From Rhizobium subbaraonis (GTDB lineage: Bacteria > Pseudomonadota > Alphaproteobacteria > Rhizobiales > Rhizobiaceae): DNA of 43,570 bases. The stretch is taken from contig NZ_OBQD01000032.1 in assembly GCF_900220975.1 (NCBI RefSeq), positions 1 through 43,570 on the forward strand, read 5' to 3'. Positions 1-43,570 of this stretch are shown in pieces; positions within the stretch are counted from its first letter, which is position 1, and every line of letters begins with the position of its first letter. The position numbers were made by a program, and so were the translations under genes. The notes under the pieces were generated by a model. The model made no database searches. It saw only the letters and a program-made list of their open reading frames with translations, and was not told where the DNA came from.

Positions 1-3000
1 GTGAAGGGCGATCTTGAGCCGATCGAGCTTTGCCAGAAGCTTGACCGCGCCTGCAACGGCAAGACGGCCGAGAACGGCGGCATCTACAAGACCGTCTGCG
101 GTAACCCCGCACTGCCGGTCTACTACTTCACCGACGAAGATCTGATCATTTCCGAGCCGCAGACCTTCACACCGTTCCCCGGCCTCGAAAAGACGTATAA
201 CGGCGCACACGCCTCCTATCCGGAGCCGGATGAGGCTTGGTCCGCCAAGGACGCCCCGCCGCGGTATAGGAGCGACCTGGAAGCAGAAGACGACGGCCGC
301 CGCCTGATCGCCAATCTCACCTATGAGGCCGTGCCCTATAAGCGCCAGGTGCAGAGGCTCATGCGCGCGGCGATCGAGGCGAACCGACGCTTCCGCTCGC
401 ATCAAGGCGTCTTCACGCCGGCCGTGAAGCTGCTTGAGCCGCTCGACGTCATCGCATGGACGTCGGCCCGCAACGGCTACGACAACAAGCGCTTTCAACT
501 TGGCGCTGTCGACGACCTGAACAACGTTAATCAGTCGGCCGCCTTCTCCGAACTCGACCCAGCCGACTACGACTGGTCGAGCGACTACGAGCTTCCGACG
601 ACGACCGGGCCGCTCGGCAGGGTGAAGCCCCAGCCGCGCGTGCTCGGCAGTTTCGGCGTGTTTCCCGCCACGGTAAAGGATGCGCTCGGCGTCGATCGCC
701 GGCCCGCCATTCGTGCCGCGTGGCCCTATAATAATGACGACGTGGCAATCCGCGCGATCGCGTTTCAGGTTCGCGAGGCCGGAAAGACCGACGTCATGTG
801 GCGGGGCCGATCGGATCAACCGGAAGAGGGCGAAGCGCTGCTCGCGCCATTCTCGCTTCTTCCGGATACCGACTATGAGGTGAAGGCCAAGTTCGTTGGC
901 GGCGGCAATACCGAACTGTTCGCCTGGTCGGCGTGGATGCCAGTCCGGACGCCCAACGTCCAGCTGACGGCCGCTGACATCCTCGACGGCGCCATCGTCG
1001 CGGCGAAGCTTGCCGACGCGGCCGTCGAAGCCAACAAGATCATGACCGGGGCTGTCACCGAGCTCAAGCTCGCCGATCGCGCCGTTTCCGATCTGAAGAT
1101 CAAGCTGGCCGCCATCAAAACCGAATTGATCGAAAACCAGGCTGTCGTCGCGGCCGCTCTGGCCGACGTGGCAGTAACGCAGCAGAAGATTGCCACCAAC
1201 GCCGTAACCCAGCTGAAGATCGCAGCCGATGCCGTGACGGAAGCGAAGGTTGCGGTAGACGCAATCACCCAGGGGAAGATCGCCAGCAACGCGGTCAATG
1301 AGCTGAAGCTCGCCGCTGCCGCCGTGACAGAGGCAAAGGTGGCCGTGGGCGCAATCACCCAGCTTAAGATCTCAACGGGTGCGGTGGGCAACGCGCAGCT
1401 GGCGTCTCTTGCCGTGGATGCTGCGAAACTGGCCACCAACGCGGTGACGACGACCAAGATCGCGGATGATGCGATTACAACGCCGAAGCTGGTCACGGGT
1501 GCAGTTGTAGCGGACAAGGTTGCCGCAAATGCGATCACCGCCCCGAAGATCCTGGTCAGCGATCTGACCAACCTCGTCATGAACGGCAGCTTCGTCGGCG
1601 GTTCAAGCGATGGCTGGTCCGGTGGCGGTTTCGAATTGCGGGCGGGCACAAGCCGACCCGGCAAGACCGAATATATCGGCTACCTTCCCGCGGGATCCAC
1701 AAGCAACATCACCGCGCAGTTTCCGGTAAATGTTCCCGTCAGTGAAGGCGACCAGTTCTATCTCGCGATGGACTTTGCGAGCGCCGGCAGCGGTGCGGCA
1801 GTGGATGCCGCCATTCAAGTCGTCTGGTACGACGCCACGAACTCCTACCTGTCGACCTCGTCACTGACGGACTCGGCGGGCACCTCCTGGAAAACCCGAG
1901 CGGGCACAATCAACGCCCCCGCCGGGGCCGCCTACATCCAGCGTGTCAACGTCATTCGGCAGGGCACGTCGGTAACCCTTCTCTACTTCACCAACGTCGT
2001 GCTTCGGAAGATGGCGTCGGCCGAGCTGATTGTCGACGGCGCCATCATCGCCAGCAAGGTGGCTGCGCTCGCGATCGCGGCCACCAACATCCAGGCTGGC
2101 GCGATCACAGCGGGTAAGATTGCGGCCGATGCGGTCACGGCCACCAACATTGTGGCCGGCACGATCACTTCGACCGAACTCGCCTCCAACTCCGTCGTCG
2201 CCGCAAAGATCGCGGCCGGGGCGATCGTCGCGGGCAAAATCGCGGCGGATGCAGTAACGGCGGCCAATGTCGTCGCCGGCACGCTGACGGCGGTCGAGCT
2301 TGCTTCCAGCTCGATCATAGCCTCCAAGATAGCTGCCAACGCCGTCACCACCGACAAGATCGCGACCAACGCTGTAACCGCAAACGAGATTGCCGCTGGC
2401 ACCATCACGGCAACCGAAATCGCCTCGGGCGCGATCACGACCGTCAAGCTAGCAGCCGAATCCATCACTGGCGCAAAGATCGCGGCCAACACAATTGGCG
2501 CGAACCACATTGCCGCGAACTCGATCACGGCAAAGCAGCTCGTCATCATGGACTGGGAGAACATTGCCCCGAACGGACAGTGGATTACCGGCGACAATGC
2601 CGGGTGGGGCTCATATCCGAGCGGCTGGAACGTCGTCGGCGCCGGCGCGCGGCCTCCTCAGCGTGGGGATTACATTCTTTCAACTCCGGGCGTAGCTGAC
2701 GATCGGACCATGACGACCGCCGGGCTCGATGTTCCCGTCCAGGGCGGTGAGCAGCTTAACGTTCAGTTCGACTGCGCCGGATCCGGTTCTGGCGCGTCAT
2801 GGGAATTCCGGGTGCGCTTGGTTTACTACGCGGCCGGCAGTTACCTGTCCGGCAGCACAGTAACGCTGTCCGGTACTTCAGTAAGCTGGCAACGTCAGAA
2901 CGGCACCATGAGCGTGCCGGCTGCCGCGGACAGGATACAGCGCATCGAGATCACCAGGGCTGGAGGCGGCAGCAACAATGCGTTCATCACGAACGTGGTT

Positions 3001-3561
3001 GTTCGCCGCAAGAAGGGCGGCGAACTGATCGTTGATGGGGCGATCTCGGCTGACCACATCAGGGCCAACGCGATCGAGACGGACAAGATCGTTCTGGGCG
3101 GCGTGACAACTACCAAGATCGATGCCGGCGCGGTCACCAACGTTGTCAGCGCCTATGCCTCGGGCAGCACAAGCGACCATAACAATAACGTGGTTCGAAC
3201 AGTTGCCTCGGCCACAATTTCCGGGCTGACCGACGCAAATGCAGTGCAGGTCGTCTTCAATTGCCGAACCGTTCAGTCTGCCCGCGCAGGAGATGCCGTA
3301 AGCAGCCGATCGACTACTACCGTGGTGATCAAGCGCGGAAGTACCGTCATCGCGACGCGCGACATTGTGGATTGCGCGCTTGTCGATTCCGGCGGCATCG
3401 GTCGCATCGGGACGATGCCGGCCATTGCCATAGCCTTCGCGGACACGGGTTTCACAGGCAGCTCGGCAACCTACAGCGTAGAAATTTCTAGCGACTATGG
3501 CGGCTCCGGTACCTGCTACACGCAACAGCGGTTCCTTCAGCTCATGGCGACGAAGAGGTAG
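1..3561 (+). CDS. Tail-tip / host-specificity (J-like) protein, 5' truncated
   Basis: The frame is open from the first base, and the N-terminal residues look internal to a protein, so the gene almost certainly begins left of the window. 1186 residues are visible. Residues 1-320 resemble the C-terminal part of siphophage tip proteins, ending in a fibronectin-like stretch. Two long blocks of degenerate decapeptide repeats (pattern xAVTxxKIAx) follow, at about residues 321-520 and 676-850. Each is followed by a jelly-roll-like carbohydrate-binding module (about 521-675 and 851-1005), and the two modules resemble each other. A small C-terminal domain closes the protein. Family knowledge places such proteins at the tail tip, where they contact the receptor. 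The repeats probably form a fibrous shaft, which is inference. The downstream gene starts 6 bases after the stop. Confidence 0.8.
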   Translation: MKGDLEPIELCQKLDRACNGKTAENGGIYKTVCGNPALPVYYFTDEDLIISEPQTFTPFPGLEKTYNGAHASYPEPDEAWSAKDAPPRYRSDLEAEDDGRRLIANLTYEAVPYKRQVQRLMRAAIEANRRFRSHQGVFTPAVKLLEPLDVIAWTSARNGYDNKRFQLGAVDDLNNVNQSAAFSELDPADYDWSSDYELPTTTGPLGRVKPQPRVLGSFGVFPATVKDALGVDRRPAIRAAWPYNNDDVAIRAIAFQVREAGKTDVMWRGRSDQPEEGEALLAPFSLLPDTDYEVKAKFVGGGNTELFAWSAWMPVRTPNVQLTAADILDGAIVAAKLADAAVEANKIMTGAVTELKLADRAVSDLKIKLAAIKTELIENQAVVAAALADVAVTQQKIATNAVTQLKIAADAVTEAKVAVDAITQGKIASNAVNELKLAAAAVTEAKVAVGAITQLKISTGAVGNAQLASLAVDAAKLATNAVTTTKIADDAITTPKLVTGAVVADKVAANAITAPKILVSDLTNLVMNGSFVGGSSDGWSGGGFELRAGTSRPGKTEYIGYLPAGSTSNITAQFPVNVPVSEGDQFYLAMDFASAGSGAAVDAAIQVVWYDATNSYLSTSSLTDSAGTSWKTRAGTINAPAGAAYIQRVNVIRQGTSVTLLYFTNVVLRKMASAELIVDGAIIASKVAALAIAATNIQAGAITAGKIAADAVTATNIVAGTITSTELASNSVVAAKIAAGAIVAGKIAADAVTAANVVAGTLTAVELASSSIIASKIAANAVTTDKIATNAVTANEIAAGTITATEIASGAITTVKLAAESITGAKIAANTIGANHIAANSITAKQLVIMDWENIAPNGQWITGDNAGWGSYPSGWNVVGAGARPPQRGDYILSTPGVADDRTMTTAGLDVPVQGGEQLNVQFDCAGSGSGASWEFRVRLVYYAAGSYLSGSTVTLSGTSVSWQRQNGTMSVPAAADRIQRIEITRAGGGSNNAFITNVVVRRKKGGELIVDGAISADHIRANAIETDKIVLGGVTTTKIDAGAVTNVVSAYASGSTSDHNNNVVRTVASATISGLTDANAVQVVFNCRTVQSARAGDAVSSRSTTTVVIKRGSTVIATRDIVDCALVDSGGIGRIGTMPAIAIAFADTGFTGSSATYSVEISSDYGGSGTCYTQQRFLQLMATKR
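961..1560 (+). repeat. Degenerate 30-bp tandem repeats encoding decapeptides, block 1
   Basis: This stretch of the tail-tip gene encodes successive ten-residue units such as NAVTQLKIAA, DAVTEAKVAV, DAITQGKIAS and NAVNELKLAA. At DNA level the units are about 30 bp and diverged, so selection acts on the protein pattern. The alternation of small, polar and aliphatic residues suggests a regular shaft. Confidence 0.75.
2026..2550 (+). repeat. Degenerate 30-bp tandem repeats encoding decapeptides, block 2
   Basis: A second block in the same gene encodes units such as GAITAGKIAA, DAVTATNIVA, GTITSTELAS and NAVTTDKIAT. It lies between the two carbohydrate-binding-like modules. Some neighbouring units (GAI-AGKIAA then DAVTA-N-VA then GT-T--ELAS) recur as a 30-residue higher-order triplet, so the block probably grew by duplicating triplets. 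Confidence 0.75.
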
Positions 3562-3567
3562 CAACCT

Positions 3568-3990
3568 ATGGCGACGAACACGATCAGGTTCGTGAAGTAC
3601 CGGACCGACACTGGCGAAATCCTCTGCACAGGCAACTGCGCAAAGGAAGAGCACGCCTACCTTCAGATGGAGGATCCCGAGAATGAGCACATCCTGCTCG
3701 ATGTCGCGGCCGACGACGCAACGCAGTGGGTAAACGATGAAGGCGATATCGTCGCCCGTCCTACGCTCGATGTTCCCGAAACTGCATCGATCATTGCGGA
3801 CGGCATTTCCGAAGTGACGGGCGCTCTGCCGGCCGGAACCGTGGTGCGCTTCAACGGTGCCGTCGCAACCACGGACGGCAGCGACTTCGGTTTCACGACT
3901 GACATGCCCGGTACTTATGTTTTCGACTTCCAGCCGCCGTTTCCGTACATCCCTCGCACCCTGACGATCGAGAGCACCGATGCGGTTTGA
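3568..3990 (+). CDS. Small tail-associated protein
   Basis: 140 residues, starting 6 bases after the tail-tip gene behind an AGAGG ribosome site inside that gene's end. There is no signal peptide or membrane segment. The C-terminal half has a Gly/Thr-rich beta pattern (ALPAGTVVRFNG, then MPGTYVFDFQPPFPY) like an immunoglobulin-like or fibre-tip fold. The gene overlaps the next one by 11 bases, which fits a tail-fibre transcription unit. I do not recognise a named family. The position directly after the J-like gene suggests a fibre accessory or tip protein. Confidence 0.7.
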   Translation: MATNTIRFVKYRTDTGEILCTGNCAKEEHAYLQMEDPENEHILLDVAADDATQWVNDEGDIVARPTLDVPETASIIADGISEVTGALPAGTVVRFNGAVATTDGSDFGFTTDMPGTYVFDFQPPFPYIPRTLTIESTDAV

Positions 3991-4369
3991 TATTCGAGAG
4001 GATCAATCTGCCCGCGCCGATCGGGTGAATGCCGAGCGTGATCGGCGGATTGTCGCCGGCCTCGTCTTCGGCGGCGTCCTCTATCAGACACGCGACCAGG
4101 ACAGGGAGAACATTGCCGGCGCCGGGGCGCTCGCCATCGCTGCTATCATGAACGGTGCGCAGCCGGCTGACTATCGCTGGCACGGAGGCGACACCGACTT
4201 CACCTGGATCGCGGCCGACAATAGCCTGCATGTGATGGACGCCCCGACCCTGATCGCCTTCGGCAATGCCGTGGTCAATCACAAGGCGGCGCTGATTCAC
4301 GCGGCCCGCTTGATCAAGGACATGAACCCGATCCCGGCGGACTTCGCCGAGGATAGCTACTGGCCGTAA
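3980..4369 (+). CDS. DUF4376-like tail fibre-associated protein
   Basis: 129 residues. The C-terminal half carries the pattern of DUF4376 proteins: a DFTWIAADN stretch followed by a helical segment (LIAFGNAVVNHKAALI) and an ADF-E--YWP end. Such domains are common at the ends of phage tail fibre operons and are thought to be accessory or chaperone-like, but no mechanism is established. The start codon lies inside the preceding gene, implying translational coupling. About 120 bases without an evident gene follow before the Com-like gene. Confidence 0.75.
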   Translation: MRFDIREDQSARADRVNAERDRRIVAGLVFGGVLYQTRDQDRENIAGAGALAIAAIMNGAQPADYRWHGGDTDFTWIAADNSLHVMDAPTLIAFGNAVVNHKAALIHAARLIKDMNPIPADFAEDSYWP

Positions 4370-4487
4370 CCGACCGGGCGGCCGAGGCGCGCGAACGCCT
4401 CAAGCGACGGGTGAACAACCGGCAAGAAGTCACCCCGTCCGACAGCAGCTTTGCACAACCGTCGCACCCGTACCCTGCAGGGCGGAT

Positions 4488-4748
4488 ATGCGATTACGTC
4501 GTGAGTTCTTAGAAATGGTGAACATTCGATGCGGCTCCTGCTCGGCCCTGCTTTTCAAGGCTGGACCGGGAGCCATCGCCGCCGGTATAGAGATCAAGTG
4601 CCGCCGATGCGGCACGATAAATCATCTGAGGCCACCCGAGCCCTTACCCGATCGCCAGGAGCGACAGGACAAAGGAGCCGGTGGCAATGCCACAGAAGTC
4701 AAAACCCCTCCCTCCATTGCCGGCCGACGCCCCACGGGCGCCGGATAA
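4488..4748 (+). CDS. com: Com-like zinc-ribbon regulator
   Basis: 86 residues. The core from the second methionine (position 4515) carries two CxxC pairs (IRCGSC and IKCRRCG) about 20 residues apart, followed by TINHL. This is the signature of the Mu Com family. In Mu, Com binds mom mRNA and exposes its start so that the Mom DNA-modification enzyme is made. Here a GNAT-bearing gene of the Mom kind lies just downstream, so a similar translational role is a reasonable inference. The start is uncertain: 4488 follows a GGGCGG run, while 4515 matches the usual family N-terminus. The 3' end overlaps the next gene in another frame. Confidence 0.8.
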   Translation: MRLRREFLEMVNIRCGSCSALLFKAGPGAIAAGIEIKCRRCGTINHLRPPEPLPDRQERQDKGAGGNATEVKTPPSIAGRRPTGAG

Positions 4749-4869
4749 ACCCCGCTATAAAGAACAGTATGGCGTGATCCTCGTCTGCCCGGATGAAGCA
4801 GCGCAAAAGGTCCTGTTCGAGGCGCTCGCCGCTCTCAAGGCCTGCAAGATCAAGGTGGTTGTGACATGA
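4681..4869 (+). CDS. Small protein between Com and the ABC-GNAT fusion
   Basis: 62 residues from a GTG start with a strong AAAGGAG ribosome site about 5 bases upstream; an ATG lies two codons on. A proline-rich N-terminus is followed by a compact alpha/beta pattern: VILVCPDE, a helix rich in A/Q/L/F, then KIKVVVT. The start lies inside the Com gene, and the stop overlaps the ABC-GNAT start as ATGA, so the three genes are coupled. I know the VxCxDExxQxxLFxxL...KVVV pattern only as an uncharacterised motif of phage proteins. It may be an adaptor for the downstream enzymes, but nothing in the sequence proves this. Confidence 0.65.
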   Translation: MAMPQKSKPLPPLPADAPRAPDKPRYKEQYGVILVCPDEAAQKVLFEALAALKACKIKVVVT

Positions 4870-5966
4870 GGATCAGTGTCGCAAACTCGTGCGCCGACTA
4901 CGCGAGCTACCGGACCGAGCGCGTGAAGTCTCTATTCAATGTCGATGACGGCAGCCGGTTCGAAATTGACGTCAATTTGCCGGTCGAGGAATCGGACTGG
5001 AAAATCGGCCTGGTGGTCGGGCCGTCCGGTTCGGGCAAGACGACGATCGGCAAGGCGATCTTCGCCGACCCGGCTGCGCTCTCGGCGCCGAGCTGGGCCA
5101 CGGACAAGCCGATTATCGACTGCATCGCGGAGGGCGGCAGCTTCGACGACGCGACCGCGGCGCTCTCGGCGGTCGGACTTGGGTCTGTCCCGGCATGGCT
5201 GCGCCCATACTCCGTCCTTTCCAATGGCGAGAAGTTCCGCGCCGACCTCGCCCGCGTCGTTTGCGAGAAGCCCGGCGAGGTTGTCATCGACGAGTTTACA
5301 AGCGTCGTCGATCGACGGATCGCCCGCATTGGCGCCCATGCCTTCGCCAAGGCGTGGCGGCGTGGAAGCGGGCGGGCGGTACTGCTGTCCTGCCACTACG
5401 ACATTATCGACTGGCTCGCGCCGGACTGGATTCTCGACACAGCGACAGGTGCTTTCACCGGGAGGTATCTTCGACGACGCCCGTCGATCGAGCTGGAAAT
5501 CCGCGAAACCGACTGGCGATGGTGGCCGTATTTTGAGCCGCATCACTATCTGAAGCTTCCGAAGATGGTGGCCGCGTCCTGCTTCGTGGGCTTCGTCGAC
5601 GGCGAGCCCGTCGCCCACCTGGGCGTGAGCACTCGGCCGGGCCTTAAGGAGGCCCGCGCCTGCCGCCTGGTCGTCATGCCCGAATGGCAGGGCGCCGGTG
5701 TCGGCATGCGCTTCCTCAATGCCGTTTGCGCCGCCTGGCGCCGCGGCGACAACCGCTATGGCCGGCCGATGCCGACCCTGTTTCACACCTCCCACCCGGC
5801 GCTCGCGGCCGCGCTGCGCCGCGACCCAAATTGGACGCAGGTTTCTGCGCCCTTGTGCGGCGAGAGCCGCAGCGGCCGATCGGCGTCCGTTGTCGGCAGC
5901 CTGGGCGGCCATTGGCGCGCCTCGCAGGGGTTCCGCTACATCGAGGGGATAAATATTCGAAAATGA
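4866..5966 (+). CDS. ABC-ATPase / GNAT (Mom-like) fusion protein
   Basis: 366 residues. The N-terminal half is an ABC-type ATPase: Walker A GPSGSGKTT (52-60), signature LSNGEK (118-123), Walker B VVIDEF (139-144) and an H-loop at His177 in LSCHYD. No membrane segments are present, so it is not a transporter subunit. The C-terminal half (about 235-345) is a GNAT fold: a CFVGFVDGEPVAHLGV strand pair, then the cofactor-loop signature QGAGVG (275-280), then TSHPAL. Mu Mom, which modifies adenine in DNA, is a divergent GNAT. The neighbouring Com gene and formyltransferase suggest that this fusion acts on phage DNA, with the ATPase perhaps used for DNA loading. The substrate is unknown. It is coupled to both neighbours by ATGA overlaps. 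Confidence 0.85.
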   Translation: MRISVANSCADYASYRTERVKSLFNVDDGSRFEIDVNLPVEESDWKIGLVVGPSGSGKTTIGKAIFADPAALSAPSWATDKPIIDCIAEGGSFDDATAALSAVGLGSVPAWLRPYSVLSNGEKFRADLARVVCEKPGEVVIDEFTSVVDRRIARIGAHAFAKAWRRGSGRAVLLSCHYDIIDWLAPDWILDTATGAFTGRYLRRRPSIELEIRETDWRWWPYFEPHHYLKLPKMVAASCFVGFVDGEPVAHLGVSTRPGLKEARACRLVVMPEWQGAGVGMRFLNAVCAAWRRGDNRYGRPMPTLFHTSHPALAAALRRDPNWTQVSAPLCGESRSGRSASVVGSLGGHWRASQGFRYIEGINIRK

Positions 5967-6646
5967 AAATCGGGATTATTGGTCAGAAGTGGCTCGCCGA
6001 ACGCGTCTTCAGCGAGCTTACAAAGGAGTTTCAAGTGACCTTCGTGGCGGCTTCAAGCGCGGACGATCGGCTGGCAGAAGCAGCCCGCGGTGCCGGCATC
6101 GAGCCGTTTCTCTATAACGGCCGTTGGTTGTCGGACGCCACTCCGGTCGAACCTCTCGACCTCCTCATTGCCGCGCACGCCTTCGTCTATATCCCGGCCA
6201 AGCTTAGGGCCGCCGCCAAGTGGTCGATCGGCTATCACCCCTCGTTGCTTCCGCTCCATCGCGGGCGGGACGCGGTCAATGCAACGATCCAAGCCGGCGA
6301 CCGTGTCGCCGGAGGCAGCGTCTACCATCTGGACGACGGGTATGACACGGGGCCGATCGCGTTTCAGGAATGGTGCTTTGTGCACGAGGGCGAGGCCGCT
6401 GAACAGCTATGGCGGCGGGCGCTCGCCCCGATGGGGGCCGAGCTACTGGTGCGGGCGGCGCACTACCTTTCCGCCTACGACTTCCTACCGGCTGCAGACC
6501 AGGAATGTGACGCTCACGGCCGCGGCGCAACAGCGGCGCGGCTCCACAATCATCGGTACCCCGGCCTCTTCCGCTCATCGACAATTTGGTGCAAAAAGCA
6601 GCCTGGGCTTGCGGAAATGAGGGATTTTACAAGTGGCCAAATTTAA
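5963..6646 (+). CDS. 10-formyl-THF-type formyltransferase family protein
   Basis: 227 residues; the start was chosen at the ATG overlapping the stop of the previous gene (ATGA). The N-terminus is a Rossmann strand (MKIGIIGQ). The formyltransferase core contains YHPSLLPLHRGRDA (91-104) and YHLDDGYDTGPI (121-132). His92 and Asp128 match the catalytic His and Asp of methionyl-tRNA formyltransferase and GART. The Asn normally two residues before the His is replaced by Gly90, as in the IYHPSLLP form of 10-formyl-THF dehydrogenase. Family members move or release a formyl group from 10-formyl-tetrahydrofolate. In this operon the acceptor may be a DNA base or an intermediate made by the GNAT partner, which is inference. 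Confidence 0.85.
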   Translation: MKIGIIGQKWLAERVFSELTKEFQVTFVAASSADDRLAEAARGAGIEPFLYNGRWLSDATPVEPLDLLIAAHAFVYIPAKLRAAAKWSIGYHPSLLPLHRGRDAVNATIQAGDRVAGGSVYHLDDGYDTGPIAFQEWCFVHEGEAAEQLWRRALAPMGAELLVRAAHYLSAYDFLPAADQECDAHGRGATAARLHNHRYPGLFRSSTIWCKKQPGLAEMRDFTSGQI

Positions 6647-7415
6647 GTTCGGCGTTCGAGCTACCGATGAAATTTTCACGCATATCTCCCCGGACAATTA
6701 CAAGACCTATATTCCCCGTCTCGACAGCCTCGACCTCTACGACAACATCTTCACGAAGGTAACGTTCAACGTTGACGGCCTAGAATGGAAGATGTCGCGA
6801 GGCAACCCGGTCGGCGTGGAGCGCGGGCGGCTGACGGAGCTGATCCAGTTGGAAAATTTGTCCACCGTCATCCACATCGAAAACATGAAGGTGAGCTTCA
6901 AAACCATCGTGCACGCGTTGAACAAGCGCGACCAACAAAAGGTCGCAGACCTGATCTTGAAGGGCAATGACAGCATCACCCTGACCAAATGGAACGACGA
7001 CTTCCGCGGCGGCGCTGGCAACGACATTATGAAGGGGCTCGGCGGCCACGATGTCCTCCGGGGCGAGGCCGGTAGCGACAAGCTCTACGGCGGCGGCGGG
7101 AACGATAAGCTCTACGGCGGCGCCGGGGATGATCTCCTTGTGGGTGGGCCGGGAACCGATAGGCTCTACGGCGGCAGCGGTCGCGACACGTTCGTTTTCA
7201 GGACCGGCAGCGACAAGGACCGCATCATGGTTTTCGAGGATGGCGAACGGATCGACTTGAGCGGTCTCAAGTCCGTCACCTCGTTTGCTGACCTGATGGA
7301 CAACCACGCGGCGCAGGTGGGCGACAATGTCCTGATCAACGGGAACCATGGCGACAAGCTCACTATCGCCGGAACGAAGCTCGCAGCGCTCGACGCGGAC
7401 GACTTCATCTTCTAA
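6633..7415 (+). CDS. RTX-type calcium-binding repeat protein
   Basis: 260 residues from a GTG that overlaps the end of the formyltransferase gene by 14 bases, behind a GAGGG site. Residues 1-120 form a domain I do not recognise. Residues about 125-185 carry five to six nonapeptide RTX repeats (GGAGNDIMK, GGGGNDKLY, GGAGDDLLV, GGPGTDRLY, GGSGRDTFVF), which fold into a calcium-filled beta roll in secreted proteins. A C-terminal segment with FVF, DRIMVFEDGERIDL and a DDFIF end resembles RTX caps and could be a type I secretion signal. No secretion genes are nearby. It may be a lysogenic-conversion gene or a virion-associated protein. Confidence 0.85.
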   Translation: MAKFKFGVRATDEIFTHISPDNYKTYIPRLDSLDLYDNIFTKVTFNVDGLEWKMSRGNPVGVERGRLTELIQLENLSTVIHIENMKVSFKTIVHALNKRDQQKVADLILKGNDSITLTKWNDDFRGGAGNDIMKGLGGHDVLRGEAGSDKLYGGGGNDKLYGGAGDDLLVGGPGTDRLYGGSGRDTFVFRTGSDKDRIMVFEDGERIDLSGLKSVTSFADLMDNHAAQVGDNVLINGNHGDKLTIAGTKLAALDADDFIF

Positions 7416-7513: not shown

Positions 7514-7771
7514 TCAGTGTCGGCGCCGGAAAGACGGCAATAGGGCAGCCTTGATGAAAACCGGATCGCGCTGCCCCTGCGAGTAGAGGCGGATGATGGC
7601 GCCGCCGAGGGCCTCGGCAGCCTCGCTGTCAATCGAGAAGCAACATTCGCGCATGCAGTCATCAAAGATCGCCTGCATCTGGTTCAGGTCAGTGGGGCTG
7701 AATGCCTTGCTGAACTTGCCACATGGGAAGACCGGATAGCCGGCTGCATCATAGTAGTAAGACGGGGTCAC
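7514..7771 (-). CDS. Small hypothetical protein, tandem paralogue A
   Basis: 85 residues from a GTG start with a strong GGGAGGG ribosome site. By hand alignment, 58 of 85 residues match the neighbouring gene at 8032-8289, with the shared motifs AAGxPVFPxG, MQAIFDDCMREC, AIIRLYSQGQ and LLPSF. No signal peptide or membrane segment is present; two conserved Cys occur in CMREC. Short proteins of this type are known to me from rhizobial genomes without an assigned function. The pair reads opposite to the flanking cassette and may be chromosomal rather than phage DNA. Confidence 0.75.
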   Translation of the reverse strand: MTPSYYYDAAGYPVFPCGKFSKAFSPTDLNQMQAIFDDCMRECCFSIDSEAAEALGGAIIRLYSQGQRDPVFIKAALLPSFRRRH

Positions 7772-8031: not shown

Positions 8032-8289
8032 TCAGGGCCGGCGCTTGAATGACGGAAGAAGCTCAGCCTTGATCAAAATGGGATCCTGCTGTCCCTGCGA
8101 GTAGAGACGGATTATGGCGCTGCCGAGGGCTTGGCCCGCTTCGCTGTCGGCCGCAAAGTTGCACTCGCGCATGCAGTCGTCGAAGATCGCTTGCATGCTG
8201 CTCAAATCATCAGGGCTGAACACATGTTCATTGGCACCAAATGGAAAGACAGGATGGCCGGCGGCATCAAAACGGCGAGACGTTGGCAT
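8032..8289 (-). CDS. Small hypothetical protein, tandem paralogue B
   Basis: 85 residues from an ATG with a near-perfect AGGAGGA ribosome site. It shares 58 of 85 residues with the gene at 7514-7771. The two starts are 518 bases apart, as are the two stops, so the genes are equal-length products of a tandem duplication. Divergence lies mainly near residues 19-23 and 27-31, while MQAIFDDCMREC and AIIRLYSQGQ are fully conserved, which suggests both copies are still under selection. Function unknown. Confidence 0.75.
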   Translation of the reverse strand: MPTSRRFDAAGHPVFPFGANEHVFSPDDLSSMQAIFDDCMRECNFAADSEAGQALGSAIIRLYSQGQQDPILIKAELLPSFKRRP

Positions 8290-40936: not shown

Positions 40937-41647
40937 TCAGACTAGGGCCGGCCCCGTCACGTTCCAAGCCACAACGAGGCCCGGCCCACGCCGGGCCTTC
41001 GCTATTTCCCACGCCTTCGCGTCATAGTGCGGGTCGGATGGGAACGGCGGGCGCGCCTTGCACGCCTGCCCGAATTCGTAGGCGCTGACGTGGATCGTCG
41101 CGCCGGCAACATCTGCAGCGGAAAGCTCACGCCCCACCTGCACAACATGCCGCCGCGCATTCGGCCAGGCCTTCGCGAGGCCTCGCGCAAGAACGCCCGA
41201 TCCAGAAGCACACCAAACCTCATCCGGCTCCACACCGGTCGACCGCGCTGCTGTGGCAATGGCATCGATCGCCTCAGGCATGTCCACGCCGAAGGGTGCA
41301 AGCATCGCTCCAGTGGCCTCGCAATATTCGCGGGCGCGGGCCTGAACCACTGTGAGATAGCCTGGCGATACCTGCCACACCGTCGCCCCGAGCGCCTTCG
41401 CCATCAACGCGCGAGGGTGCGGCTGCTTCCGCTTGGCGACGAAGAGCGTCGCCTTTTTGCCAAGTTCGCGCGCCGCCCAGGCGAGCGCCGTCTGCGCGCC
41501 GCCCTCCGCAGGGGTCGCATACACCACCTCCTCCGCATCGTCGAAGAGGTGCACGAGATAGCGAACTTTGGTGCCGCCCTCGATCAGATCGTCGCGAACA
41601 ACATGGATGCCGTCGTGCTCTATCACTGTCGGTGGCGGCAAGTTCAA
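40937..41647 (-). CDS. Fold-type II PLP-dependent enzyme (ACC deaminase / D-cysteine desulfhydrase-like)
   Basis: About 236 residues, shorter than the usual 320-340 of ACC deaminase or D-Cys desulfhydrase. The EGGTKVRYLVHL segment holds the PLP-binding Lys; ATPAEGGAQTALAWAARELG matches the S-x-G-N-x-x-Q--A region; CASGSGVLARGL is the phosphate-binding Gly/Ser loop. The start was taken at TTG 41647, overlapping the methylase stop as TTGA behind a GGGGAG site; a GTG at 41662 is an alternative. It is coupled to the ParB-methylase gene upstream. PLP enzymes act in thymine hypermodification of some phages, so a role in DNA modification is plausible but unproven. Confidence 0.78.
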   Translation of the reverse strand: MNLPPPTVIEHDGIHVVRDDLIEGGTKVRYLVHLFDDAEEVVYATPAEGGAQTALAWAARELGKKATLFVAKRKQPHPRALMAKALGATVWQVSPGYLTVVQARAREYCEATGAMLAPFGVDMPEAIDAIATAARSTGVEPDEVWCASGSGVLARGLAKAWPNARRHVVQVGRELSAADVAGATIHVSAYEFGQACKARPPFPSDPHYDAKAWEIAKARRGPGLVVAWNVTGPALV

Positions 41648-43203
41648 AGCTTCTCTCCCCACTGCTGGTCGCCGTCGGGCGCCGCTTCCCCAACGGGGGC
41701 AATCTCCCCGAATTCGACCTCGCCGGTCGCCTCGACGGCGCGCTTTGCATCGCCTTTCACGAAGACGAGCACATTCTGATGGGTCTTACCCAGCTTCCGG
41801 CTCGCCTCGAATTGCTTGCCGGCGCGGATCGGCAGCGATCCGGCCGCCGTGACGAGGATGGCCTCATTGTAGAAGTCCAGTCCAGCCCGCCGAAATGCCT
41901 CGATCGTATCGGGCACGAAGCCGTAGTACCTGCCGCGCTTATCGCGGACCTCGCCAACGACGAAGGCCGCGAACCGATCAGGCTTGAGCAAGGCGCAGGT
42001 GGTGGCGATGATCTCGAAATATGCCGCCCGAAACTCCTCGTAGCCGAGCGTCGATAAATCCGCCGGATCGTCGGAATAGACTTCAAGATCCGCATAGGGC
42101 GGGCAGGAAAAGACAAAATCCGCCTCCGTCCCCGCGCAATGCTCCCCGATCTTCCGACTATCGCCTACGCGCCAATCCGGCACCGGATCGCCGCAAATCT
42201 TCTCCGCCTGGGTGCGATTTGCCTCAACCTGTTCCGTCCGAAGCTCGCCGCCGACGTAGCGGCGACCGAGCGCCGATGCCACGATGCCGCGGACTGAGCC
42301 GCCCGCGAAGGGATCGAGGATCACGCCGCCTGGCGGGCAAAACCAGCGATAGGCAAGCTCGCAAAGGACGGGATCGAAGATGGAAGTGCCCGATTGCGGG
42401 GCGCCTTCCATCTTGATTTCTCCCAGCGTCAGCCCTGCCGGCGCGACGCCCCCGACGACGTGCTCCCCGCGCATCAAGTCTTGTCCGAACGTCGCTGCTT
42501 TCCGCTTGCCGTTCTTCGCACGCTTCGCCGGGTTTGGCTGATTGATCGTGTCGGAGAACTTCAAAAGGTTCTCGCCGCGCCCGACTTCGCTCTGAATTCC
42601 GAGTGACAGCCACAGGCGCTTGCGATCCTGCCACCATCCTTCCCGCGCATTCAGAACCGAGAACGGCGCAATGCCGAAACGCTCGGCGAGCTTCGGCCGC
42701 GGGTCTTCGTCGGTCGATGCCGCCGGATCGGCCAGCAGCTTTTCGAGCGATTTCGCGTCGAAGCCGGTCAGATCCAGCACAAAGCCCTCGTCCTGCAAGA
42801 ACGAGAGTTCCATTTTCAGCAGATCGTCGTCCCACTCCGACGTCTCTGCCAAGCGGTTGTCGGCCAGGGTGTATGCGCGACGCTGCGCCTCGGTCCATCC
42901 TGTGCAGTCGATAACCGGCACCGTGCCTTTTGGGAGGACGCGCCCACTCGGCAGCTTGATCGGCTCGTCGGCCGCGATCATTTCGAGCGCGGCGAGGCGC
43001 CGGCCGTGCCCAGCGACAATGATCCCGCCATCGTCGATGTCGGCGAGGATTGGGTTCGTCCACCCGAATTCTTTGATTGAAGCCCGGATCTGCGCCACCT
43101 GTTCTGGCGGATGCGTCCGAGCATTTCGAGAATTTGGGGTCAGGTCAGCGACCGGCAAAAGCCGGGCGCTGATGCCCGCCTCGGCGGTGGCGGTCATCTG
43201 CAT
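41644..43203 (-). CDS. ParB-N domain DNA methylase-like protein
   Basis: About 519 residues from ATG 43203, which has a TGGAG site; ATG 43215 is an alternative (numbering below starts there). Residues 18-80 are a ParB N-terminal domain (LTPNSRNARTH, then IIVAGHGRRLAAL). A linker with APFSVLNAREGWWQDRKR follows. The MTase domain has LDPFAGGSVRG (motif I, about 300-310), then FSCPPYADLEVYSDD (motif IV, about 369-383). The catalytic motif reads CPPY rather than the common D/N/S-PPY. Such proteins are often phage-coded amino-MTases with uncertain activity. It is the first gene of the PLP-enzyme unit. Confidence 0.85.
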   Translation of the reverse strand: MQMTATAEAGISARLLPVADLTPNSRNARTHPPEQVAQIRASIKEFGWTNPILADIDDGGIIVAGHGRRLAALEMIAADEPIKLPSGRVLPKGTVPVIDCTGWTEAQRRAYTLADNRLAETSEWDDDLLKMELSFLQDEGFVLDLTGFDAKSLEKLLADPAASTDEDPRPKLAERFGIAPFSVLNAREGWWQDRKRLWLSLGIQSEVGRGENLLKFSDTINQPNPAKRAKNGKRKAATFGQDLMRGEHVVGGVAPAGLTLGEIKMEGAPQSGTSIFDPVLCELAYRWFCPPGGVILDPFAGGSVRGIVASALGRRYVGGELRTEQVEANRTQAEKICGDPVPDWRVGDSRKIGEHCAGTEADFVFSCPPYADLEVYSDDPADLSTLGYEEFRAAYFEIIATTCALLKPDRFAAFVVGEVRDKRGRYYGFVPDTIEAFRRAGLDFYNEAILVTAAGSLPIRAGKQFEASRKLGKTHQNVLVFVKGDAKRAVEATGEVEFGEIAPVGEAAPDGDQQWGEKL

Positions 43204-43570
43204 TTGCTGCTCCATTTTCGGGGAAGTTCAATAAAATTTCATCCAACCCAACCGCGATTTCCGAAAACTGAAAGACGCGCAAAGATCGGGGGGCAGAAGC
43301 TCCGCGCCGGACCCTCCTTGGGGAAGGTACCTAGCCCGGGAGTAATATTCTTTCGCGGCCCAGCAAGAGAGCATCGCGCAAATCCATTTCCCTCTCAGGG
43401 GGTGTGTGGAATGACGTTGCTCTATGGCAGTAGGCGGTTGAGCTCATGGGCCACGCGCTTGATGAGCATCTCGTCTGTCCGTCGTCGAATGATTTGAGAC
43501 TTTTTGGGCGTGGGAAGAATGGAGTTTCCGGCTCGGTTTGCGGGTTGATTTAAGCCGCTTTGGCCTGGTG
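43204..43570. other. Right-edge stretch without a firm gene
   Basis: I see no convincing complete gene here. A 49-codon minus-strand frame enters from the right edge and stops at 43422, ending in a basic helix-like segment MLIKRVAHELNRLLP. It could be the end of a gene beginning outside the window, but nothing else supports it. The rest (43216-43421) would be the leader and promoter region of the methylase gene. Confidence 0.3.

Follow-up and report, generated by a model that had tools for sequence, protein, structure and literature searches.

The described systems closest to the locus analysed here are the com–mom module of phage Mu and a family of proteins in which an ABC ATPase is fused to a GNAT domain. 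In Mu, com encodes a zinc ribbon and overlaps the next gene, mom, the gene of adenine modification, near which lies the hairpin ATG-CCTGCGAG-CAT; the motif bound by the Com zinc finger, CC(N)2-3GAG in a hairpin loop, was defined by SELEX with the H. sputorum protein, according to the portion of PMC6483171 available to us. The ABC-GNAT family is predicted to acylate DNA bases, the acyl modification being described as uncharacterised, and in this role ABC-GNAT is already in print (PMC7824862, in extracts). The protein of Tenacibaculum phage pT24 in that paper belongs to the same family as ours (33.9% identity over 83% of the query); the system differs in that the extracts mention no formyltransferase ("formyl" occurs 0 times), and our HMM typing around the pT24 ABC-GNAT gene gave no match to a formyltransferase, ParB, Com or the small protein described below. 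Our locus shares with Mu the Com zinc ribbon, the overlap of com with the following gene and a similar hairpin, TCG-CCAGGAG-CGA, but behind com it has a ParB tail, an ABC-GNAT and a formyltransferase (FT) where Mu has mom.

The window, by which we mean the whole stretch of 43,570 nt that was analysed (Rhizobium subbaraonis, NZ_OBQD01000032.1, positions 1-43,570), contains four + strand ORFs with successive overlaps, forming a cassette at 4488-6646 with the following features:

4515-4748, + strand: Com zinc ribbon (PF10122, CxxC...CxxC); an ORF is possible from 4488
4652-4664, + strand: hairpin TCG-CCAGGAG-CGA, a Com-target-like RNA matching the CC(N)2-3GAG of PMC6483171 (as given in its available portion)
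4671-4677, + strand: AAAGGAG, Shine-Dalgarno-like by eye, 5' of the small gene
4687-4869, + strand: small protein, a stand-alone ParB C-terminal tail according to an HMM of 58 copies; ORF from GTG 4681
4866-5966, + strand: ABC ATPase-GNAT fusion, presumed DNA acyltransferase (Pfam, phrog, invariant residues, AlphaFold)
5963-6646, + strand: FT, 10-formyl-THF, FDH-hydrolase type (Pfam, phrog, PDB profile and fold matches)

The ORFs thus bear out the four overlapping genes that the first-pass annotation had described, and its Com-like zinc ribbon proves to be a true Com, with PF10122 above the cut-off and a hairpin like the published target; its ABC ATPase-GNAT fusion is likewise upheld by PF00005, PF00583 and phrog_11143.

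Two phages appear to share the contig: the end of one (1-7415, + strand, with tail fibre and cassette) and a second one on the - strand (10179-43215), to which a tail sheath, a portal and a terminase belong. In the host genome the cassette is matched once over its full length, and the window DNA is also found in IMG/VR (IMGVR_UViG_2740891857_000004). The ORF at 1-3561, two ORFs 5' of Com, is tail-fibre-like and resembles the sequence 5' of the cassettes in loci L014 and L016 (35-36% identity). An RTX calcium-binding repeat protein (6633-7415) shares 14 nt with the end of FT and gave no match in related loci (tblastn with the low-complexity filter on), and two similar 85-aa ORFs lying close together on the - strand (7514-7771 and 8032-8289) look by eye like duplicates. 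At 40937-43215, - strand, a fusion of a ParB-like protein with a DNA methyltransferase overlaps the gene of a PLP-dependent enzyme (PALP, PF00291), and the pair is possibly another DNA modification module. One query for a Mu-type transposase found none in the host genome, a search that shows little.

The ABC-GNAT protein passes the Pfam cut-offs for PF00005 and PF00583 and matches phrog_11143 along its full length (residues 1-360, E=1e-149). In our alignment of the window protein with 71 of 109 references (A1), the key residues of Walker A as well as L118, S119, G121, D142, E143, His177, Q275, G276 and G278 are invariant in 72/72 sequences; we take L118/S119/G121 to be the signature, D142/E143 the Walker B motif, His177 the switch and Q275/G276/G278 the GNAT motif. 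The Q-G-x-G motif is of the kind that binds CoA. The AlphaFold model has a mean pLDDT of 87.8, and the best 50 matches of a whole-model fold search show ABC proteins, so that the GNAT part is unplaced by structure.

Relatives of this protein are found in 69 of 50,697 INPHARED records at 1e-5, with 45 of the matches covering at least 80% of its length, and annotated neighbourhoods were fetched for 17 of the 69. All four cassette genes recur in Pseudomonas phage Komp_PAO1_1, a phage with transposase and Gam genes; a Porphyromonas phage shares the small gene, ABC-GNAT and FT, with no Com by HMM; Gordonia phage Axumite has the order ParB, ABC-GNAT, FT, terminase; and in phages of Gordonia, Pasteurella and Leptospira the ABC-GNAT module lies shortly before the terminase. 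From IMG/VR we took the best 80 of 494 loci for the window query, 39 for the Jace query and 38 for the Axumite query, and added eight phage regions, a sample that leans towards relatives of the queries. After HMM typing of the 165 loci and removal of 15 with a split, short or stop-bearing ABC-GNAT, the remaining 150 were reduced to 117 at 95% identity, and a FastTree tree was built from these non-redundant ABC-GNATs; a set of 89 further loci consists of the best 80 of 219 and nine phage regions. Com and the small gene stand 5' of ABC-GNAT in 58 of the 117 loci, and the smallest group with all Com loci has 62 tips and weak support (0.436). With start codons picked by rule, the small gene and ABC-GNAT overlap by 4 nt in 58/58 of the Com loci, and Com and the small gene overlap in 54/58, by a variable length; in the window, the latter overlap is 62-68 nt, and the small/ABC-GNAT and ABC-GNAT/FT junctions are both ATGA, 4 nt each. 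The arrangement of the cassette is above chance because of the 58 uniform small/ABC-GNAT overlaps and because FT follows in 73 of the 80 testable members of one clade.

Com itself matches PF10122 with E=1.5e-12 (47.2 bits, cut-off 22.9) and has the CxxC...CxxC pattern; since the match begins at residue 12, close to the second ATG at 4515, the gene may be 4515-4748 rather than start from 4488. The hairpin at 4652-4664 agrees with the published Com target and lies before the start of the small gene, the one presumably regulated: it sits in the end of the Com message, 6 nt 5' of the small-gene ribosome site, its motif beginning 26 nt 5' of GTG 4681 and 32 nt 5' of ATG 4687. The motif of the Mu hairpin begins 27 nt before an in-frame GTG, which we take to be the mom start; the mom gene annotated in the GenBank record of Mu starts 30 nt farther 5'.

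A first scan, which ran from where the Com HMM match ends up to the small domain, gave three flanking pairs in only 7/56 loci, and it was the intended upstream control, with a hairpin in 33/56, that revealed where the hairpin lies. The region was then re-set to the entire Com domain as far as the stop and, separately, to a fixed window of -300 to -160 relative to ABC-GNAT, each with its own controls and with a hairpin counted as CC(N)2-3GAG closed by at least three further base pairs, G-U allowed. Between the start of the Com domain and the Com stop, such a hairpin is present in 47/58 Com loci, against a mean of 4.3 and a maximum of 9 in 60 trials of synonymous recoding with the codon usage of each locus, and the antisense strand of the same stretch gives 3. 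The fixed window yields it in 48/58 Com loci of the tree, in 0/27 ParB loci of the FT clade and in 0/24 other tree loci; among the further loci, it occurs in 2/5 with Com and in 1/80 without. Where a Com locus has a single motif position (n=19), 16 have at least three flanking pairs, and flanking positions one to three are each paired in 18/19, the fourth in 1/19. There are 14 distinct stems among the hairpins of the Com loci, with loops of two lengths and in three reading frames. Although related loci are not independent, they differ in reading frame and in the residues encoded, so that conservation of the protein alone does not account for the pattern. Around the start of the small gene, general RNA folding energy was unremarkable in 50 loci (mean z -1.03, against -1.05, -0.52 and -0.95 at control places). 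By analogy with Mu, Com of the window is predicted to bind RNA and activate translation.

The protein whose gene follows com matches phrog_28816 (E=4.7e-6) and gave no Pfam match and no ParB N-terminal domain, consisting of the tail only. Its ORF opens with GTG 4681, although ATG 4687, which follows AAAGGAG, is the likelier start. We built an HMM from 58 stand-alone copies only, ran it on six-frame translations and tallied its matches in loci with a typed ABC-GNAT, the figures coming from typed loci outside the building set. It matched 84 C-termini of ParB proteins abutting ABC-GNAT, 26 ParB C-termini further upstream (1-2.6 kb in some Nonomuraea loci) and 31 frames that abut ABC-GNAT and have no ParB domain; beyond these 110 ParB frames and 31 stand-alone copies, there was no match at E 0.01 in the typed loci. 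Because it recognised ParB C-termini and stand-alone neighbours of ABC-GNAT only, the small protein is identified as a free-standing tail of the ParB-like protein found before ABC-GNAT elsewhere, minus the ParB domain. Two loci have two ParB-like genes near one ABC-GNAT, in L207 both before it and in L122, by eye, after it.

FT matches PF00551 (E=6e-17, 62.4 bits, cut-off 26.1) and phrog_9240 (E=7.3e-42), and the first-pass annotation was right in seeing a formyltransferase of the 10-formyl-THF type; the subtype, however, is that of the FDH hydrolase and not the amine type. In an alignment of 59 of 68 FT rows (A3), His92, Ser94 and Asp128 are invariant in 59/59, and at least 90% have Gly two residues before the His; the window FT has Gly90 at the position of the catalytic Asn of amine N-formyltransferases. 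That Asn is crucial in FMT, ArnA and GART, and Ile takes its place in FDH, where a thiol attack by mercaptoethanol is described and one by the 4'-phosphopantetheine of the full enzyme is a suggestion (PMC4388273, in extracts). The best PDB relatives of FT are likewise FDH hydrolase domains, whether searched by single sequence (1.5e-18), profile (1.6e-41) or fold (5.2e-17; model pLDDT 86.9). Judged by these residues, FT is of the FDH-hydrolase type, with His, Ser and Asp kept and Asn absent; it shares these traits and the fold with the hydrolase domain of 10-formyl-THF dehydrogenase but stands alone, without the carrier and dehydrogenase domains. An assignment to the amine N-formyltransferases of the PurN/GART, FMT or ArnA type was rejected, the catalytic Asn being replaced by Gly. 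For HypX, formation of formyl-CoA has been proposed, with direct results noted as lacking (PMC6802093, in extracts), and FT matches the HypX-type protein 6j1f (HoxX) only distantly (1e-7).

Whether FT travels with ABC-GNAT depends on the clade: among the sampled loci it does so in one clade and not in ABC-GNATs generally. The first-pass annotation had named neighbourhoods in which the two genes part company as a refutation of its proposal, and in that clade this refutation fails. All 73 tips with FT within 2.5 kb 3' of ABC-GNAT fall into a single group of 92 tips (support 0.923); seven of its members lack FT despite more than 700 nt of downstream sequence, our requirement for a testable FT-less locus, and 12 are cut off; outside it, FT was found in 0/25 tree tips. 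In one part of the group ParB stands upstream, in the other Com and the small gene, and the FT clade phages of Pseudomonas, Porphyromonas and Gordonia have differing upstream genes. Five of the 89 further loci have FT. A sample of 385 genomes of the class contained ABC-GNAT at 1e-40 in 2, with at most five candidates scored per genome, and a phage-type FT (more than 200 bits, the next match scoring 152.7) in 3, of which two adjoin ABC-GNAT; around the FT of the third genome, G124, no ABC-GNAT was found by HMM within about 1.5 kb on each side or among the surrounding listed ORFs. That orphan FT, L343 4196-4783, lies in a chromosome.

In the sister group (12 tips, support 0.96), other genes take the place of FT. 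A CoA-transferase-III-like gene is present in nine tips, six of which also have PanD (aspartate decarboxylase), and three have neither; no FT was found in the loci with these genes, and the two gene sets occurred together in none of the 117 loci and none of the 89 further ones. The operon gp85-88 of phage Jace (ParB, ABC-GNAT, PanD, CoA-transferase-like) has the ParB tail motif and ABC-GNAT in common with the window and differs in having PanD and CoA_transf_3 where the window has FT. In Jace and its relatives (L011 7065-8173 and the group L119-L129), PanD and/or a short CoA-transferase III-like gene comes after ParB and ABC-GNAT. Four of four decarboxylases match PF02261 (4e-28 to 2e-33), and four of six CoA-transferase-like proteins, all short at about 225 aa, pass the cut-off of PF02515. 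The usual product of PanD is beta-alanine, which bears an amine. The further loci include five with a CoA-transferase-like gene, four of them with PanD (one PanD 3.5 kb upstream), and because 79/89 have none of FT, PanD and the CoA-transferase-like gene, the ABC-GNAT family can do without a linked donor gene; by eye, no other donor genes were recognised among the 60 largest neighbour clusters.

The account that we favour, tentatively and with nearly as much belief as doubt, is Com-controlled acylation of phage DNA in which FT makes a formyl thioester, perhaps of CoA, and the GNAT domain passes the formyl group to a base, with target and chemistry both inferred. By analogy with Mu, Com would bind the hairpin in the last part of the com message and open translation of the small protein, ABC-GNAT and FT, which the short overlaps would couple. 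The small protein, as the tail of a ParB-like partner, probably docks on ABC-GNAT, which would engage DNA using ATP, and the GNAT domain would transfer acyl from CoA onto an amine of a base, as predicted in PMC7824862 (extracts). FT would move the formyl of 10-formyl-THF to a thiol, most simply that of CoA, in which case the transferred group would be formyl and the product an N-formyl base; a formyl-thioester maker is suggested because of the subtype of FT and the CoA-type genes replacing it in the sister clade. We hold DNA acylation of some kind with more confidence than this full chain. Several points weigh against it: the DNA target is an inference; FDH-type enzymes can merely hydrolyse 10-formyl-THF; the HypX-type HoxX is a distant relative only; 7/80 testable clade members have no FT and one in three phage-type FTs of the 385 genomes has no ABC-GNAT nearby; at the three-pair threshold the hairpin is missing in 10/58 tree and 3/5 further Com loci; most further loci have no linked donor gene; and the CoA-transferase-like proteins are short, two of the six falling below the cut-off.

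In a reading close to that of the first-pass annotation, the base might instead first receive from the GNAT an acyl group, amino-bearing or other, and FT might formylate that group or its donor; amine formyltransferases do belong to the FT fold family, and the sister group has PanD with its amine-bearing product. We consider this unlikely, as FT is without the Asn crucial in FMT, ArnA and GART (PMC4388273, extracts), and no PanD or CoA-transferase-like gene, the genes for which HMMs were run, lies beside any FT in the 117 loci. As to the earlier claim that FT adds a one-carbon unit to the product or its donor, the subtype and the CoA-type replacement speak for FT making the acyl donor rather than decorating the product. 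Amines of proteins or of small molecules are the targets of many GNATs, and ABC-GNAT might acylate a protein or RNA (a host factor, virion protein or tRNA) as a takeover or anti-defence device. Rac is listed among GNATs with such targets (PMC7824862, extracts), and in the record of one Porphyromonas phage the small ORF carries the label "acr candidate". We give this reading as little credence as the previous one, the Mu-like Com control, the ParB-like partner, the position before the terminase and the published prediction of DNA acylation (PMC7824862, extracts) all speaking against it. Less likely still, FT might be a hitch-hiking folate or one-carbon gene while ABC-GNAT uses the acetyl-CoA of the host; the FT-less clade members, the orphan FT and the ability of FDH-type enzymes to hydrolyse 10-formyl-THF (PMC4388273, extracts) would fit, but FT tracks one ABC-GNAT clade through Pseudomonas, Porphyromonas and Gordonia phages even as the upstream genes differ. 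Finally, the first-pass annotation had seen a Mom-type system with an ATPase module. Com with its Mu-like hairpin and the ABC-GNAT stand, but a true Mom system with Mu-type adenine modification is highly improbable: hhalign, a weak test here, found no significant profile similarity between the GNAT and Mom (E 0.4 with a single Mom, 0.76 with 32 Mom loci, Neff 1.24), the gene directly after com is the small gene and not ABC-GNAT, and the ATPase domain, the Q-G-x-G motif and the extra genes set the cassette apart.

Our preferred account, formylation of DNA with FT as the donor maker, has a wider and rather doubtful extension, in which one kind of DNA acyltransferase would work with swappable acyl-CoA donors, formyl-CoA leading to N-formylated bases and the PanD and CoA-transferase-type genes to bases with a beta-alanyl-like group. 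If true, both modifications would be new as far as we searched, the formyl one being under Com control; we found no literature joining FT, Com or PanD with ABC-GNAT in the texts and extracts available, and the source paper of the prediction or the 2020 ABC ATPase classification may list partners. The findings point to a second presumed DNA modification system under the Com switch known from phage Mu. For the ABC-GNAT enzymes, whose acyl modification is so far uncharacterised in the print sources available to us, formyl would be a chemically specific and testable guess, and with donor-type gene sets being swapped, the chemistry of such systems may be readable from their neighbours.
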